From assembly GCF_001984575.1 (NCBI RefSeq), contig NZ_LZNS01000001.1:3469881-3533880 (forward strand): DNA of 64,000 nt. The letters are read 5' to 3'. Positions within the stretch are counted from its first letter, which is position 1. Each line of letters begins with the position of its first letter. Both the position numbers and the translations under genes were made by a program. Source of the stretch: Streptomyces sp. MP131-18. GTDB taxonomy: Bacteria; Actinomycetota; Actinomycetes; Streptomycetales; Streptomycetaceae. The notes under the pieces were generated by a model, which was given only the letters and a program-made list of their open reading frames with translations, was not told the DNA's origin and ran no database searches. Of the stretch, positions 1,940-8,497 are shown one piece after another.

Positions 1940-2716
1940 TCAGTACGCGCTGTCGACGTTGTCCATGGAGCCGTAGCGCTCGGCGGCGTAGTTGCAGGCC
2001 GCGGCGATGTTGGCGACCGGGTCGTAGATGTTCTTGCTGGTGCCCTCGACGTGGTACTGCTCGAAGGTCGGGTCGATGACCTGGAGCAGACCCTTGGACG
2101 GGATGTTCTCCTGGGCGTTGGTGTCCCACAGGTTGATCGTCTGCGGGTCACCGCTGGACTCGCGCATCAGGTTGCGGTGGATGCCCTCGTAGGAGCCGGG
2201 GATGTCCTTCTCGTCCAGGACCTCGAGCGCCTCGTCGATCCAGCGGTCGATGTCCTCGTCCGAGGCGGGCTGGGGCTCGGGCTGCTCGTGGCGGGGGATG
2301 GTGACCAGCGTGCCGTCCTCGCGGTACTCCGCGCCGCGGCCGCGGTCCGCGACCTCAGTGGCGCCGTCGTCGCCGTCGCCGCCGCGGTCGTCACGGCTCG
2401 CGCCGTCGTCGGCACGCTCGGTGTGCTCGGCGCTCTCGGCGTTCTCGGTGTTCTCAGCGTTCTCGTCGTTTCCGTCGTTCTCGTCGTTCTCGGCGCCGGG
2501 GGCCTTCCCGATGACCCCGTCGGAGTCGTTCGGGGCGAAGGCTGCCGGGGCCGCGGTCCGCTCGGCGGCCTCGGTGACACCGTGGGCCGCCGCGTCGTCG
2601 GCGGCCGCGGTGGGCGCGAAGGGCAGGGTGAGGGCCGCGGCGCCGGCGGTCACGATGCCGGCCAGCGCGACGGTGCGGGTCACGGTGGTGCGGGTGTCGT
2701 TGGTGCTGGCGGTCAT
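1940..2716 (-). CDS. Secreted lytic transglycosylase-like (SLT domain) protein
   Basis: A 258-residue exported protein. Residues 1-45 form a Sec-type signal (TVALAGIVTAGAAALTLPFAPTAA, then AAADD). Residues ~50-165 are a low-complexity linker rich in Glu, Asn, Asp and Ala. The C-terminal ~85 residues are an SLT fold: the presumed catalytic Glu lies in LMRESSGDP, followed by NLWDTNAQ, SKGLLQVIDPTFEQYH and the family ending YGSMDNVDSAY. Such enzymes cleave peptidoglycan glycan strands during growth or germination. The ATG at 2716 is chosen because the signal peptide begins there; the frame continues upstream without similarity. It is followed by a strong terminator. Confidence 0.9.
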   Translation of the reverse strand: MTASTNDTRTTVTRTVALAGIVTAGAAALTLPFAPTAAADDAAAHGVTEAAERTAAPAAFAPNDSDGVIGKAPGAENDENDGNDENAENTENAESAEHTERADDGASRDDRGGDGDDGATEVADRGRGAEYREDGTLVTIPRHEQPEPQPASDEDIDRWIDEALEVLDEKDIPGSYEGIHRNLMRESSGDPQTINLWDTNAQENIPSKGLLQVIDPTFEQYHVEGTSKNIYDPVANIAAACNYAAERYGSMDNVDSAY

Positions 2717-3058
2717 GAAGACGTACCTCGTTCCTTGGGCGAACGGGAGGGAGATGGGTGCCGCGGATGGCGACGTGGCCCAGCATGGGAACTGCCGTGG
2801 CGCCCCTGCAAAGACCCCTTCTGCGATCCCGCTTCGTAGGCCACGAACGGCGCCGCACCGCCGTCCGGAGGGGCGGCCCGCGGCCTGCCCGGGGGCGGGG
2901 CGCGGCCCGCTCCTATTCCCCTTCGGATGTGACGGGCGTCTCGTGCCGGGCATCACGTGAGGGCCCCCGCCCGTTCACCCCCGGGATCGGCGCCCGGTAC
3001 GCAGCGTCACGCGGCGCCCGCCCCGCGCCAGGCGGTCGGAACGGTGTTGTATGGGCTC
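2717..3058. other. Divergent intergenic region, SLT-domain gene / ROK regulator
   Basis: 342 bp with no gene. It should hold the promoters of both flanking genes. A 15-bp interrupted palindrome, TTCGT-AGGCC-ACGAA (2833-2847), lies ~117 bp before the SLT start and could be an operator or the base of a leader hairpin. I compared the leader with what I remember of the c-di-AMP (ydaO) riboswitch found before some actinobacterial cell-wall hydrolases and could not match it. The ROK start has no clear Shine-Dalgarno. Confidence 0.35.
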
Positions 3059-5233
3059 ATGCCCGACCTCCCGGAGTTCTCCCTCACCCGCGCCCAGCAG
3101 GAGGCGTTGCGCAGGTGGTCGCGGGAACGGCCGGACCGGGACGTCCGCGCGCGGATCATCCTGGACGCGGCAGCCGGCGTCTCGGTCTCCGACAGTGCCC
3201 GCACGCTGGGCGTCTCCCGCCCCACCGTGTCGTCCTGGCGCAGCCGTTACGCCGCGCAGGGCCTCGGTGGCCTGGAGCACCGGCCGCGCAGCGGCCGGCC
3301 GCCGCGCATCGACGAGGCGGACGTGATCGCCTCGACCCTGGCGGGGCCGCCCCCGCCGCGCCGGGCGTGGTCGGCCCGCGCGCTCGCCGACCACCTCGGC
3401 ATATCCCACACGGCGCTGGGCGCGGTGTGGCGCCGCTGGGGCGTGGCCGGCGGCGATGCCGCCGCCGTCACGCTGCCCACCGCCCCGCCGCTGCCGCTGC
3501 GCCGTCCGCGGCTGCTCGGCCTGTGGCGCGCGGCGGACGCCGCCGTGATCCTGCTGGCCGAGCCCCCCGAGCCCGCGGCCGGCGCGCTGCCTGCCGTGCC
3601 CGCGCCCGCCGAGGAGCGGCGGGCACTGAACGGCGCGCTGAACGCCGCGCTGGGCACGGCGCTGACGGCCGAGGGGCCGCGGGCCGAGGCCCTGCCCGCG
3701 CTCGCGGAGCTGCTGGCCGAGGTGGGCGCGGCGCACCGGGCGCCGGGCGTGCACGCCGTGGCGTTCGGCGGCGCCGGGGCGCCGGCGGAAGACGAGGGCG
3801 GGCCGGCCGCCGCGGGCGTCGCCTGGCACACCGCGCCCGAGTTCATGAGCTGGCCCGCCACCCTGGGCGTCGTCTGCCAGCTCCAGCTGCGCCACCGCCC
3901 GGCCGCCGCGGCGGCCACGCACGGTTCGCTGCTCGACGCGCTGCGCGCCGGTCAGGCGGCGCCGCTGGTCTGGCGGTGCCCCGCGGAGGGCGCGGCGCCC
4001 GAGCCGCCGGCGCGAACGCCCCGCGCGTTCGACCAGCTGGCGCTCGGCTCGTTCAACGAGAAGCTGGTCATCGAGAGCATCAGGGAGGCGGGCTCGCTCA
4101 GCCGCGTGGAGATCGCGCAGCGCACCGGGCTCACCCCGCAGGCGGTCTCCCGCATCACGCGCAACCTGCTCACCTCGGCCTTCCTGGTCGAGGACTCCGT
4201 GCTTCCCGGCGGCAAGGGCAAGCCGCGGGTGCCGTTGCGGCTGCGCGCGGACGCGGCCTGCGCCATCGGCATCCACCTCGACCCGGAGATGATCACGCAG
4301 GTCGTCGTCGACCTGTGCGGCGGCGTGCTCGACCAGCGGGTGCTGCCGCTGCACGAAGGGGCGGACCCCGCCTCGGTGATCGACAGCATGACGCGCATGG
4401 CGCGGGAGGCCGTCGCCGCCTCGCGGGCCGTGTCCGACACCCTGCTCGGCGTCGGCATCGCGGTGCCGGGTCCGCTGGACGCGGGCGCCGGGGTGCTGTA
4501 CGACCCGCCGCTGTTCAGCGGCTGGCACGACGTTCCGCTGCGGGCCCCGCTCGCCGAACGGCTCGGCGTGCCGGTCACCGTCGAGAAGGACGCGACCGCG
4601 GCGGCCATCGGCGAACGCTGGATCGGCGCCGCCGCCCGCACCGGCGACTTCGTCTACCTGTACCTGGGCGCGGGCGCCGGGGCCGGGGCGTTCCTCAACG
4701 GCGACGTGTACCGCGGCAGGACGGGCAACGCCGGGGAGTTCGGCGAACTGTGCGCGTTTGCGCTCGGGCACGTCACGCCCGAGGGCGGGCCAGGCCGGGT
4801 GCCGGAGTGCGCGCCCATGTCATCGGCGCTGGACAAGGCCGCCGCGGCCGGGCTGACGTGGCCGCAGGCACCGGGCGCGTACGAGTCGCTGTGCGCCGCG
4901 GCGGCGGCGGGGGACGCGCGGGCCGTACGGGCGTTCCGTGAAGTCGCGCGGGTTGTCGCCCGGGGCGCGACCGGCGTGACCGACCTGCTGGACACGACCC
5001 TGCTGATCGTCGGCGGCCCGGCCGTTCCGGCACCGGTCGCCGGTCTCTTCCTGTCCGAGATCTCCGCAGCGGTCAACCGGTACCCGCTGGCCAGCAGGCT
5101 GCGGCGGGTCCACGTCGAACACTCGCTGCTGAACGAGTCGGCGGCGGCGGTCGGCGCGGCCTCCGGCGTGTTCCACGCCTCCTTCGCGCCCCGCCTGCGC
5201 ACCCACGCCCGCGCCGGGGCGCGGGCCACCTGA
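3059..5233 (+). CDS. ROK-family regulator fused to a degenerate IS630-transposase-like N-terminus
   Basis: A 724-residue two-part protein. Residues ~320-724 are a ROK repressor: winged helix (SLSRVEIAQRTGLTPQAVSRI, ~340-362), then the sugar-kinase-like fold with GVGIAVPGPLDAG, EKDATAAAIGE and GNAGEFGE; the usual Cys-rich zinc motif is missing. Residues 1-~310 follow the plan of an IS630-family transposase: helix-turn-helix plus GRPPRI (30-84), then LLGLWRAADAAVILLAEPPE (~153-172), HAVAFGGAGAP (~231) and a WHTAPEFMSW block (~256) matching the HFTPTSASWLN region. The three catalytic acids appear lost, so it is probably a DNA-binding leftover, not a transposase. It likely controls the adjacent alpha-mannosidase by sensing a sugar. 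The ATG at 3059 is chosen because the HTH begins just after it. Confidence 0.85.
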   Translation: MPDLPEFSLTRAQQEALRRWSRERPDRDVRARIILDAAAGVSVSDSARTLGVSRPTVSSWRSRYAAQGLGGLEHRPRSGRPPRIDEADVIASTLAGPPPPRRAWSARALADHLGISHTALGAVWRRWGVAGGDAAAVTLPTAPPLPLRRPRLLGLWRAADAAVILLAEPPEPAAGALPAVPAPAEERRALNGALNAALGTALTAEGPRAEALPALAELLAEVGAAHRAPGVHAVAFGGAGAPAEDEGGPAAAGVAWHTAPEFMSWPATLGVVCQLQLRHRPAAAAATHGSLLDALRAGQAAPLVWRCPAEGAAPEPPARTPRAFDQLALGSFNEKLVIESIREAGSLSRVEIAQRTGLTPQAVSRITRNLLTSAFLVEDSVLPGGKGKPRVPLRLRADAACAIGIHLDPEMITQVVVDLCGGVLDQRVLPLHEGADPASVIDSMTRMAREAVAASRAVSDTLLGVGIAVPGPLDAGAGVLYDPPLFSGWHDVPLRAPLAERLGVPVTVEKDATAAAIGERWIGAAARTGDFVYLYLGAGAGAGAFLNGDVYRGRTGNAGEFGELCAFALGHVTPEGGPGRVPECAPMSSALDKAAAAGLTWPQAPGAYESLCAAAAAGDARAVRAFREVARVVARGATGVTDLLDTTLLIVGGPAVPAPVAGLFLSEISAAVNRYPLASRLRRVHVEHSLLNESAAAVGAASGVFHASFAPRLRTHARAGARAT

Positions 5234-5335: not shown

Positions 5336-5367
5336 TTGACTTCATCCATCCATTGGATTTTCATAAT
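5336..5367 (+). promoter_or_regulatory. Promoter and candidate ROK operator before the alpha-mannosidase
   Basis: TTGACT (5336-5341) is a good -35 box; TTTCAT or the overlapping CATAAT (5359-5367) is the likely -10. Between them is an 11-bp palindrome ATCCA-T-TGGAT (5348-5358), placed where a repressor would block polymerase. The region is unusually A/T-rich for this genome. A second A/T-rich patch, AAAAACCTTTT, lies near 5251-5261. The adjacent ROK protein is the natural candidate to bind here; that is inference. Confidence 0.55.
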
Positions 5368-5419: not shown

Positions 5420-8400
5420 ATGCACCGCGACCCCGCCCAGACCGAACGACGCCTGCACCGCGTCCTGACCCAGCGCCTGTGGCCCGCCGTCCACCGGCCG
5501 GGCATCCCCCTCGACGTCGCCGGCTGGGCCGCACCGGGCGAGCCGGTGCCGGTCGCCGACGGCATCGCCGCGCCGTACCGGCCCATGCGCGTCGGCGAGC
5601 CCTGGGGCCCCGCCTGGGCCACGCACTGGTTCCGCATCTCCGGCACGGTGCCGCGCGAGTGGGCGGGGCGGCGCGTCGAGGCCGTCGTCGACCTCGGCTT
5701 CGACGGCACCAAGGCCGGTTTCTCCGCGGAGGGCCTGGTCCACCTCCCGGACGGCACGCCCCTGAAGGCGCTGAACCCGCGCAACGCGTGGCTGACCGTG
5801 GCCGAGAAGGCGGCGGGCGGCGAGGAGTTCACGTTCCACGTCGAGGCCGCCGCCAACCCGCTGATCCTCGACAGCGGCCCCGGCGGCGTGCCGTTCCTGC
5901 CGACCGGCCTCGGCGCACGCGCCGCCTGGCTGGAGGGCGCGGCGGACGAGGCGGGCGCGCCGCTCTACCGGCTGGCCCGGGCCGAACTGACCGTGTTCCA
6001 GCGGGACGTGTGGGAGCTGTGCCAGGATCTCGACGTGCTGTCCGGCCTGGTGGCCGAGCTGCCCGCGGAGTCCACCCGCCGTTGGCAGGTTCTGCACGCC
6101 GTGGAACGCGCCCTGGACGCGGTCGACCTCCAGGACATCCCCGGCACCGCCCCCGCCGCGCGCGACGCGCTGGCCGCGGTCCTCGCCGCGCCCGCCCCGG
6201 CCGACGCGCACCGCATATCGGCGGTCGGCCACGCGCATATCGACACCGCCTGGCTGTGGCCGCTGCGCGAAACGGTCCGCAAGGCCGCGCGCACCGTCGC
6301 CAACGTGACCGCGCTGATGGACGACCACCCGGCGTTCCGCTTCGTGATGTCGCAGGCCCAGCAGCTGGCCTGGCTGAAGGAGCAGCGGCCCGAGGTGTAC
6401 CGGCGGGCGCAGGAGAAGGCGACGGCCGGGCAGTTCCTGCCGGCCGGCAGCCTGTGGGTGGAGCCCGACACCAACCTGACCGGCGGTGAGTCCCTGGCCC
6501 GCCAGTTCGTCCACGGCAAGCGGTTCTACCTGGAGGAGTTCGGCGTCGAGACCGAGGAGATGTGGCTGCCGGACACGTTCGGCTACAACGCCGCCCTGCC
6601 GCAGCTGATGAAGCTGGCGGGCGTGCGCTGGTTCATGACGCAGAAGATCTCGTGGAACAGGACGAACACCTTCCCGCACCACACCTTCTGGTGGGAGGGC
6701 ATCGACGGCACCCGCGTTTTCAGCCACTTCCCGCCCGTCGACACCTACAACGCCGAGCTGTCGGGGCAGGAGATCGCCCACAGCGAGCGGAACTTCAAGG
6801 AGAAGGGCCCGGCGGGCCGCTCGCTGGTGCCGTTCGGCTGGGGCGACGGCGGTGGCGGCCCGACCCGCGAGATGCTGGGGCGCGCGGAACGGCTCGCCGA
6901 CCTGGCCGGTTCGCCGCGGGTGACCGTCGAAGGACCGGCGGACTTCTTCGAGGCCGCGCACCGCGAGTACGGCGCGCAGGCGCCGGTGTGGTCGGGCGAG
7001 CTGTACCTGGAGCTGCACCGCGGCACACTGACGACGCAGCTCGCCACCAAGCAGGGCAACCGCCGCGCCGAACACCTGCTGCGCGAGGCCGAGTTGTGGT
7101 CGGCAACGGCCGCCCTGCGCGTCGGCGCGCCCTACCCGTACGAGGATCTGGACCGGCTGTGGAAGACGGTGCTGACGCACCAGTTCCACGACATCCTGCC
7201 CGGCTCGTCCATCGCCTGGGTGCACCGCGAGGCGGAGGCCACGTACGCCGAGGTCGCCGCCGAGCTGAACGGCCTGGTCGAACGGGCGCTGCGGGCCGTG
7301 GCCGGCCCGGCGGACGGGGACGGGGACGGCGGCGGTTCGGTCGCCTTCAACGCCGCGCCGCACGCCCGCGGCGGCGTGCCCGCGCTGGGCGGCGCGGTCG
7401 CGGACCCGGCCGCGGACCCGGCCGCGGCGGAAGGGCCGGTGGCGGCCGAACGGGGTACGGACGGCGAGCTGTTGCTGGACAACGGGCTGCTGCGCGTGAC
7501 GGTCGACGAGCGCGGTCTGGTCACCTCGCTGAAGGACCTGACCACGGGCCGGGAGGCGCTGCCGCCCGGGTCGCCCGCCAACCTGCTCCAGCTGCACCAG
7601 GACTTCCCCAACCAGTGGGACGCCTGGGACATCGACGACTTCTACCGCAACACGGTCCGCGACCTGACGGAGGCCGACGAGGTCGCGCCCGCGGCCGACG
7701 GCATCCGCGTCGTCCGCACCTTCGGCGACTCCCGCGTCGAGCAGCTGCTGACGCTGCGGCGCGGCACGCGGCGGCTGGACGTGGACACGGTGATCGACTG
7801 GCAGGAGCGGGAGAAGCTGCTGAAGGCGGCGTTCCCCCTCGATCTGCGGGCGGAACACTCGCGCGGGGAGATCCCGTTCGGCCACCAGGTGCGCCCGACC
7901 CACGCCAACACCAGCTGGGACGCGGCGAAGTTCGAGTTCTGCGCGCACCGCTGGCTGCACGTCGAGGAGCCCGGGTTCGGCGTGGCGCTCGTCAACGACT
8001 CCAGCTACGGCCACGAGGTGACCCGCGACGTCCGGGCGGACGGCGGCACCACCACGACGCTGCGCCTCTCGCTGCTGCGCGCGCCCAGGTTCCCCGACCC
8101 GGACGCCGACCGGGGCCGCCACCGCCTGGCGTACGCGCTGGTGGTGGGCGCCTCGCTCGCGGACGCCGTCCGCGAGGGCTACCGGTTCAACCTGCCGGAA
8201 CGCCGCGTGCCCGGCGCGTCGGCCGTCCCGCCGGTGGCCGTCACCGACCACGAGGCGGTCGTGATCGAGGCGGTCAAGCTCGCCGACGACCGGTCGGGCG
8301 ACCTGGTGGTCCGCCTGTACGAGGCGCTGGGCGGCCGGGCCACGGCCACGCTGCGGGTGGACGTCCCCGGGGCGGTGGCCGTCCCCGTCGACCTGCTGGA

Positions 8401-8497
8401 GCGCCCACTCCCCGGCACCGCACCGCTGCCGGGCCCGGAAGTCCCCCTGGCCCTGCGCCCGTTCGAGATCCTGACCCTGCGCATCACAACGGCCTGA
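5420..8497 (+). CDS. Alpha-mannosidase, glycoside hydrolase family 38
   Basis: A 1025-residue GH38 exo-alpha-mannosidase, removing mannose from the non-reducing end of mannosides by a retaining, zinc-dependent mechanism. Zinc-site motif HAHIDTAWLWP is at ~residue 270 and the nucleophile Asp is in WLPDTFGYNAALPQL (~383). The middle three-helix domain and the large C-terminal beta domain are full length. There is no signal peptide, so it acts in the cytosol on imported oligosaccharides. The ATG at 5420 has GGAG 5 nt upstream (5411-5414). It lies 186 bp after the ROK regulator, with its own promoter, and is followed by a strong terminator. No mannoside transporter is encoded nearby. Confidence 0.93.
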   Translation: MHRDPAQTERRLHRVLTQRLWPAVHRPGIPLDVAGWAAPGEPVPVADGIAAPYRPMRVGEPWGPAWATHWFRISGTVPREWAGRRVEAVVDLGFDGTKAGFSAEGLVHLPDGTPLKALNPRNAWLTVAEKAAGGEEFTFHVEAAANPLILDSGPGGVPFLPTGLGARAAWLEGAADEAGAPLYRLARAELTVFQRDVWELCQDLDVLSGLVAELPAESTRRWQVLHAVERALDAVDLQDIPGTAPAARDALAAVLAAPAPADAHRISAVGHAHIDTAWLWPLRETVRKAARTVANVTALMDDHPAFRFVMSQAQQLAWLKEQRPEVYRRAQEKATAGQFLPAGSLWVEPDTNLTGGESLARQFVHGKRFYLEEFGVETEEMWLPDTFGYNAALPQLMKLAGVRWFMTQKISWNRTNTFPHHTFWWEGIDGTRVFSHFPPVDTYNAELSGQEIAHSERNFKEKGPAGRSLVPFGWGDGGGGPTREMLGRAERLADLAGSPRVTVEGPADFFEAAHREYGAQAPVWSGELYLELHRGTLTTQLATKQGNRRAEHLLREAELWSATAALRVGAPYPYEDLDRLWKTVLTHQFHDILPGSSIAWVHREAEATYAEVAAELNGLVERALRAVAGPADGDGDGGGSVAFNAAPHARGGVPALGGAVADPAADPAAAEGPVAAERGTDGELLLDNGLLRVTVDERGLVTSLKDLTTGREALPPGSPANLLQLHQDFPNQWDAWDIDDFYRNTVRDLTEADEVAPAADGIRVVRTFGDSRVEQLLTLRRGTRRLDVDTVIDWQEREKLLKAAFPLDLRAEHSRGEIPFGHQVRPTHANTSWDAAKFEFCAHRWLHVEEPGFGVALVNDSSYGHEVTRDVRADGGTTTTLRLSLLRAPRFPDPDADRGRHRLAYALVVGASLADAVREGYRFNLPERRVPGASAVPPVAVTDHEAVVIEAVKLADDRSGDLVVRLYEALGGRATATLRVDVPGAVAVPVDLLERPLPGTAPLPGPEVPLALRPFEILTLRITTA

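Follow-up and report, generated by a model that had tools for sequence, protein, structure and literature searches.

A ROK-type sugar regulator with an N-terminus probably derived from an IS630 transposase, encoded beside an alpha-mannosidase gene in Streptomyces

Introduction

Can a bacterial transposase become a lasting part of a sugar regulator? The question is raised by a gene in the stretch of 64,000 nucleotides of Streptomyces sp. MP131-18 that was analysed here (the window). Reading the DNA letters alone, the original prediction took its product for a ROK repressor built on a domesticated IS630-type transposase. The core of that reading, i.e., an IS630-derived N-terminal part, a lost catalytic triad, in-frame joining to a ROK regulator and a GH38 mannosidase gene as neighbour, holds up and turns out to describe a family of proteins. 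How far the likeness to IS630 extends, what became of the catalytic residues, and what the transposase part may contribute to regulation are discussed below.

Architecture of the fusion protein

The gene is a single open frame of 724 aa, with ATG at 3059 and a stop codon ending at 5233, in which the PF00480 domain is preceded by a winged helix-turn-helix (HTH) (Table 1). A gene for an SLT transglycosylase-domain protein lies just upstream and divergent from it (1940–2956, minus strand). The tandem N-terminal HTH pair typical of IS630 is present: NF033545, the IS630 transposase model, matches residues 30–129 with 70 bits, below its full-length cut-off of 100, and Pfam HTH models fall before residue 130. 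One weak HTH match came from PADLOC. Residues 121–324, submitted alone to Pfam, returned no family, and low-complexity insertions of varying length occur in the remnant region. Among PDB sequences, the second half is related to Mlc-like and further ROK proteins; these alignments start at residue 330–332, so that the winged HTH stands directly before the ROK domain, as in solved ROK regulators.

Table 1. Features of the fusion gene and its surroundings (positions in the window)
Feature	Position	Strand	Basis
Fusion gene, IS630-derived N-terminus plus ROK regulator	3059..5233	+	724 aa; Pfam and NCBIfam matches
HTH1, residues 14–72, IS630/paired-like	3098..3274	+	NF033545; superposition on Pax5 1k78
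HTH2, residues 80–128	3296..3442	+	PF13565 HTH_32 over residues 56–123
Degenerate IS630 catalytic-domain remnant (putative), residues 131–312	3449..3994	+	HTH-free profiles; AlphaFold model
ROK winged HTH, residues 326–400	4034..4258	+	PDB ROK alignments; joint with the N-terminal part just before
ROK domain, residues 414–702	4298..5164	+	PF00480, E 9e-33
Promoter-like stretch TTGACT...CATAAT before GH38	5336..5367	+	By eye
Candidate operator palindrome CATCCATTGGATT, family consensus AATCCAWTGGATT	5347..5359		Comparison of clade-A leaders
GH38 alpha-mannosidase, presumed target gene	5420..8497	+	PF01074, E 4.5e-90; start ATG 5420 by eye

Origin of residues 131–312

The region behind the HTH pair was compared by means of remnant profiles from which all HTH columns had been removed. 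Such a profile, built from 19 fusions, matched the IS630 transposase L049, which is intact with D, D and E all present, at 43 bits (E 7.6e-12) over positions 6–188 of 194. The next matches were L056, a dead and standalone relative (E 3.3e-8), and the IS630 frames L081 (1.3e-7) and L067 (1.1e-4), after which the dead L051 and L053 ranked. As controls, reversed decoys did no better than E 0.08 and unrelated forward frames no better than E 0.019, the latter in an antisense frame in L040. Most other IS630 frames scored E 0.001 or worse, which is near noise, so that detection by single sequences is weak.

Since L049, the best intact relative, had first been recruited by a profile that contained the HTH, a scan of 394 genomes of the class serves as the test free of that bias. 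An HTH-free profile of 45 fusions, run against all six frames, matched at least 14 times with E ≤ 0.001, in 10 genomes; these counts are lower bounds because at most eight candidates were scored per genome. Two of the listed matches lie in fusions, and 10 of the 12 non-fusion matches lie in IS630 transposase frames; the remaining two are L190, in a non-IS630 frame, and L193, without a matching frame of 100 aa.

Profile–profile comparison of the remnant with IS630 gave P 1.6e-5 over 171 columns, with two of the 30 IS630 rows omitted (reversed controls, 0.45 and 0.54), and P 1.6e-4 with a different choice of rows. A likeness generic to DDE enzymes was considered and ruled out: against an IS481 profile, made from seven IS481 frames out of 12 fetched loci, the remnant scored P 0.86–0.93, whereas IS630 against IS481 scored 4.3e-6. 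Searched against PDB sequences, the remnant profile found no transposase; the IS630 profile itself reached Sleeping Beauty (5cr4, E 1.9e-4).

The four motif pairs that had been matched by eye (LLGLW..AVILLAEPPE, HAVAFGG, WHTAPEFMSW and PLVWRCPAE) recur in the same order and register in the HTH-free profile–profile alignment. The profile searches thus found the predicted IS630 homology beyond the HTH. The stronger wording, that residues 1 to about 310 follow a whole IS630 transposase, survives in part, as the homology does run on into the catalytic domain, which is eroded rather than intact. A derivation of residues 131–312 from the IS630 catalytic domain is therefore supported at the level of sequence comparison.

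Loss of the catalytic triad

At such divergence, we infer the catalytic register from columns placed by the profile–profile alignment of remnant and IS630. The D-D-E columns then correspond to E168, F236 and G270 in the window. Across 45 fusions, the first column holds T in 21, E in 15, Q in four, G in three, and D and A in one each. The second holds L (30), W (14) or F (1), and the third R (26), C (6), S (5), G (4), A (2), N (1) or T (1). A D-D-E/D triad of the IS630 kind is absent from the window and from all 45 aligned fusions. That all three catalytic acids are gone, as had been proposed, is accurate for the acid-free second and third columns; the first still carries an acid in the window.

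Terminal repeats were also sought. Those of L060 and L187 begin with CTAGTGTC, and a pattern of this type has no match in the window at up to three mismatches; the repeats of the ancestor itself may differ. L049 shows no clear pair of terminal repeats.

Predicted structure

AlphaFold was run on the window protein with 45 family members, giving two models, for the whole N-terminus and for residues 131–316. The mean pLDDT is 87.4 for residues 1–326, and the shorter model appears as a confident domain (pLDDT 88.4, pTM 0.86). In the 1–326 model, two short strands are followed by strands 151–158 and 161–167, helices 184–201 and 211–225, strands 231–237 and 254–258, helices 265–279 and 281–297, and strand 303–306. 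Judged by the IS630 alignment, the first strand pair would lead to the first D and helix 211–225 would precede the second; strand 231–237 would then be the second-D strand, strand 254–258 the HFTP strand, and helix 265–279 the helix of the third residue. In the IS630 topology, two further strands come after the first pair, and the predicted helix 184–201 appears to occupy their place.

Between the two HTH regions, where an RNase H fold had been anticipated, a confident domain is predicted that may or may not have this fold; searches of the PDB did not recognise it. With the remnant model, Foldseek returned no PDB match at E ≤ 0.001, and VIA a single chain at Z ≥ 2 (2.4). Fold searches with the whole N-terminus either retrieved HTH domains or lacked significant matches. 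HTH1 can be superposed on the paired domain of Pax5 (1k78) over 44 residues at 1.4 A, with 39% identity and Z 4.8.

Distribution and history of the family

Relatives of equal length and layout turned up when 61 genomes were searched. A profile made from ten N-termini showed the fusion or pieces of it in at least 18 genomes out of 391 from the order (rows above 190 bits, five candidates scored per genome; in G042 the fusion is split across two contigs). The locus set used below comprises the best 80 of 138 loci. In 50 of them the N-terminal part is present (contig ends truncate four of these); the other 30 encode members of the same ROK subfamily without the fusion, matching neither the HTH nor the remnant. 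The fused loci of this set stem from Streptomyces, Streptacidiphilus, Actinacidiphila, Catenulispora, Nonomuraea and Microtetraspora. The unfused ones comprise 19 from Kribbella, three from Glycomyces, two from Leifsonia, one each from Humibacter and Microlunatus, three metagenome-assembled genomes and one Streptomyces sp. (L149). The survey of ROK proteins proposed at the outset has accordingly found the same fusion many times over. An accident of frame or assembly is ruled out by the 50 loci in six genera, some strains having two. The CxCGxxGC zinc motif is common in the ROK family, yet not universal. It is absent by eye from the window protein and from all 50 fused and 30 unfused proteins of the best 80 of 138 loci, which dates its loss to before the fusion.

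The joint can be placed by comparing the two groups. In fused proteins, the N-terminal part stops at an NQ.DLGSF motif; among the 30 unfused loci (best 80 of 138), 21 have at most 52 residues of open frame ahead of this motif and nine have a longer frame without HTH or remnant match. As unfused frames begin near the point where the N-terminal part ends, the joint is close to where the ROK gene formerly started. The sequence at the joint also separates the fusions into clade A and clades B/C.

A tree of 61 rows (29 of the 45 fusion rows, 27 IS630 and five dead proteins; quick search, midpoint root) unites all 29 fusions used in one clade with SH-aLRT 99. This clade is joined (98) to the five standalone dead IS630-like proteins, and the intact L049 comes next. 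Such a topology fits a history in which catalysis was lost first and one fusion followed.

The five standalone dead proteins lack a ROK part and come from genomes of the same genus as the window, Streptomyces (L050, 1120–2019; L051, 1129–2265; L053, 1327–2523; L056, 1360–2496; L057, 994–2112). They possibly represent a separate instance of dead transposases put to use in regulation.

Association with GH38 mannosidase genes

The regulator adjoins a GH38 mannosidase gene, as had been noted from the letters: a PF01074 gene follows it in the window. In the best 80 of 138 loci, GH38 is found within 8-kb flanks of 45 of the 50 fused loci and of none of the 30 unfused ones. Among the five loci without it, L107, L126 and L129 lie on contigs shorter than 5 kb, and L124 and L137 are full-length misses. 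The 30 unfused loci are mostly Kribbella and do not count as 30 independent cases; likewise, the fused loci are related, so that the GH38 link is an association and not a series of independent events. The arrangement differs between clades, with neighbouring genes called by a GC-based script whose start positions are rough. In clades B/C, the GH38-cluster gene is the nearest same-strand upstream gene in 24 of 31 loci (best 80 of 138), and in 15 of these 24 it ends at most eight bases from the assumed start of the regulator. In clade A, GH38 lies downstream, as in the window, or farther away, and divergent ABC permease and binding-protein genes are often found upstream.

A candidate operator

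The leaders of clade A have a common pattern, TTGAC-N(6–7)-AATCCAWTGGATT-T.CAT, with mismatches. The 11-base core of the palindrome, ATCCAWTGGAT, has a single copy in the whole 7.96-Mb genome of the window, at 5348–5358 before GH38. In the best 80 of 138 loci, the 13-base palindrome occurs with up to two mismatches at 25 sites in 17 of the 19 clade-A loci, and at none of the 31 clade B/C or 30 unfused loci. At no more than one mismatch there are 18 sites, compared with one for 30 shuffled palindromes pooled. TTGAC is found within 14 bases to one side of 24 of the 25 sites. Six of these sites precede GH38 and ten an ABC permease; the rest stand before other genes or no called gene, three of the 25 preceding c4, a gene without Pfam family (one member scanned). 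Eight of the 19 clade-A loci have two copies (up to two mismatches), 2.2–3.6 kb apart and flanking the regulator gene. A promoter-like stretch surrounding the palindrome in the window was noticed by eye, and a strict sigma-70 promoter scan of the window reported nothing. A link between the operator and IS630 terminal repeats was sought without success, the ends of the CTAGTGTC type in L060 and L187 being unlike it.

Two loci, of Nonomuraea and Microtetraspora, bear on the role of the transposase part. Neither L104 (7935–9932) nor L105 (7827–9992) has HTH1 in any frame; both keep HTH2 and the remnant, and each has two perfect copies of the operator. If these proteins read it, then HTH2 or the ROK winged HTH must do so. 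The proposal that the transposase part became a second DNA-binding module loses ground on this comparison, since perfect operators persist where HTH1 is missing.

A different word, GTTGACTTGATA, is common to 19 of the 31 clade B/C loci (best 80 of 138), e.g., at about 4767–4803 in L110, and it sits in the GH38 leader of L110 and five others (six loci matched). This distribution suggests a changed operator in clades B/C. Two further elements were observed. In several clade-A loci, among them L091, L096 and L097, a conserved AGTACTTT-like element precedes the fusion gene by some tens of bases, with none seen in the window. The 11-base word GGAGTTTCAAT is present in seven of the ten unfused loci outside Kribbella (L144, L150, L152, L154, L155, L160 and L164) and may be an operator or coding sequence.

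Proposed role and alternative explanations

The origin of both halves, the loss of the triad, the single fusion clade and the frequent GH38 link are supported by the comparisons above. They are probably best explained by an IS630-type transposase that lost its catalytic triad, was fused, most likely once and in actinobacteria, to the start of a ROK sugar regulator, and was kept as a local regulator of alpha-mannoside use. In such a protein, a dimer would bind the palindrome before GH38, the divergent ABC transporter or other clade-A genes and block transcription, until a mannoside or mannose derivative held in the ROK domain releases it from the DNA. The remnant would most likely act as a dimerisation and architectural module, with HTH2, and usually also HTH1, adding DNA contacts. 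The architectural role is favoured because L104 and L105 keep their operators without HTH1.

The remnant could instead be passive baggage that slowly decays, with a ROK repressor doing all the work through its own winged HTH. We regard this as unlikely, if conceivable. Judged by dN/dS, the remnant is under constraint, but least so of the parts: its values range from 0.15 to 0.95 across the 40 closest pairs, below 1 in all those listed, and in most pairs they exceed those of the HTH region and of both ROK parts (0.76 for the near pair L122/L124). On this ground part of the remnant is perhaps a drifting linker. Both the existence of unfused relatives and the loss of HTH1 with retention of the operator in L104 and L105 fit the passive-baggage reading as well. 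However, the HTH region has dN/dS mostly below 0.3 in the same 40 pairs, the fold of the remnant is predicted with high confidence, and P140, P143, P281 and W305 are invariant in 45 sequences.

The direction of control is not readable from sequence, which leaves room for the protein to activate, and not repress, the mannosidase and transporter genes. This is improbable given that the clade-A palindrome lies between the TTGAC and T.CAT elements, which reads as a repressor position, and that Mlc and NagC, both ROK regulators, act chiefly by repression.

A more elaborate possibility is that the dead transposase still pairs two DNA sites, the step that precedes cutting in transposition, so that the fusion would bridge paired operators, such as those of the eight clade-A loci with two copies, into a sugar-controlled repression loop. 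If true, a transposon synapsis machine would have been turned into a sugar-controlled DNA looper. This is highly doubtful, because the exact 11-base core occurs only once in the genome of the window; weaker copies were searched for within the window.

Finally, that only the HTH pair derives from a transposase and residues 131–312 are an unrelated spacer or domain resembling IS630 by chance would agree with the empty Pfam result over 121–324, the failure of fold searches to find RNase H and the insertions of differing length, but is very improbable when HTH-free profiles draw IS630 transposases from whole genomes in colinear alignment and do not match IS481.

Comparison with known systems

The preferred reading, that of a dead IS630 transposase kept as part of a mannoside regulator, can be set against several known systems. 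The ROK repressors Mlc, NagC and XylR (PF00480; PDB 1z6r and 1z05) are alike in winged HTH and ROK domain, aligned over about 332–701; unlike them, the fusion has an extra IS630-derived N-terminus of 325 residues and no CxCGxxGC motif. With IS630 transposases (NF033545) it has in common the HTH pair and colinear catalytic-domain homology, and it departs from them in its ROK part, its lost triad and the absence of an L060/L187-type terminal repeat from the window. The standalone dead IS630-like proteins, the sister group of the fusions, show similar catalytic erosion but have no ROK part. As unfused, standalone dead and intact relatives are all in hand, the route of domestication can be followed, and the candidate operator together with a likely target gene makes the claim directly testable.

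Among the matches listed for literature on ROK regulators and domesticated transposases, the accessible parts of these sources describe no ROK–IS630 fusion. In a review of prokaryotic mobile-element exaptation (PMC8987985), the accessible portion deals with regulators of the Xre and antitoxin types and describes no ROK–IS630 fusion; the main text of the review nowhere mentions IS630.

Dead mobile-element proteins and transposase fusions serve as regulators elsewhere. Transcription factors formed by fusion of host proteins with transposases exist in animals. TldR descends from TnpB, which is an RNA-guided nuclease and not a DDE transposase, and has no ROK partner. As far as the accessible part of the source goes, TldR proteins are phage-encoded RNA-guided transcription factors (PMC13418256) and resemble the present case in that a mobile-element protein without cutting activity acts as a bacterial regulator. 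The animal fusions and the capture of a Tc1/mariner HTH by F-box genes, as reported in the portion of PMC12062965 available, likewise combine the DNA-binding part of a transposase with a host protein. Those are eukaryotic, whereas the fusion described here is bacterial and appears to have also kept a remnant of the catalytic domain. If the proposed origin is true, the family would parallel, in bacteria, the host–transposase fusions of animals, with the DDE catalytic part and the HTHs built into a metabolic regulator.
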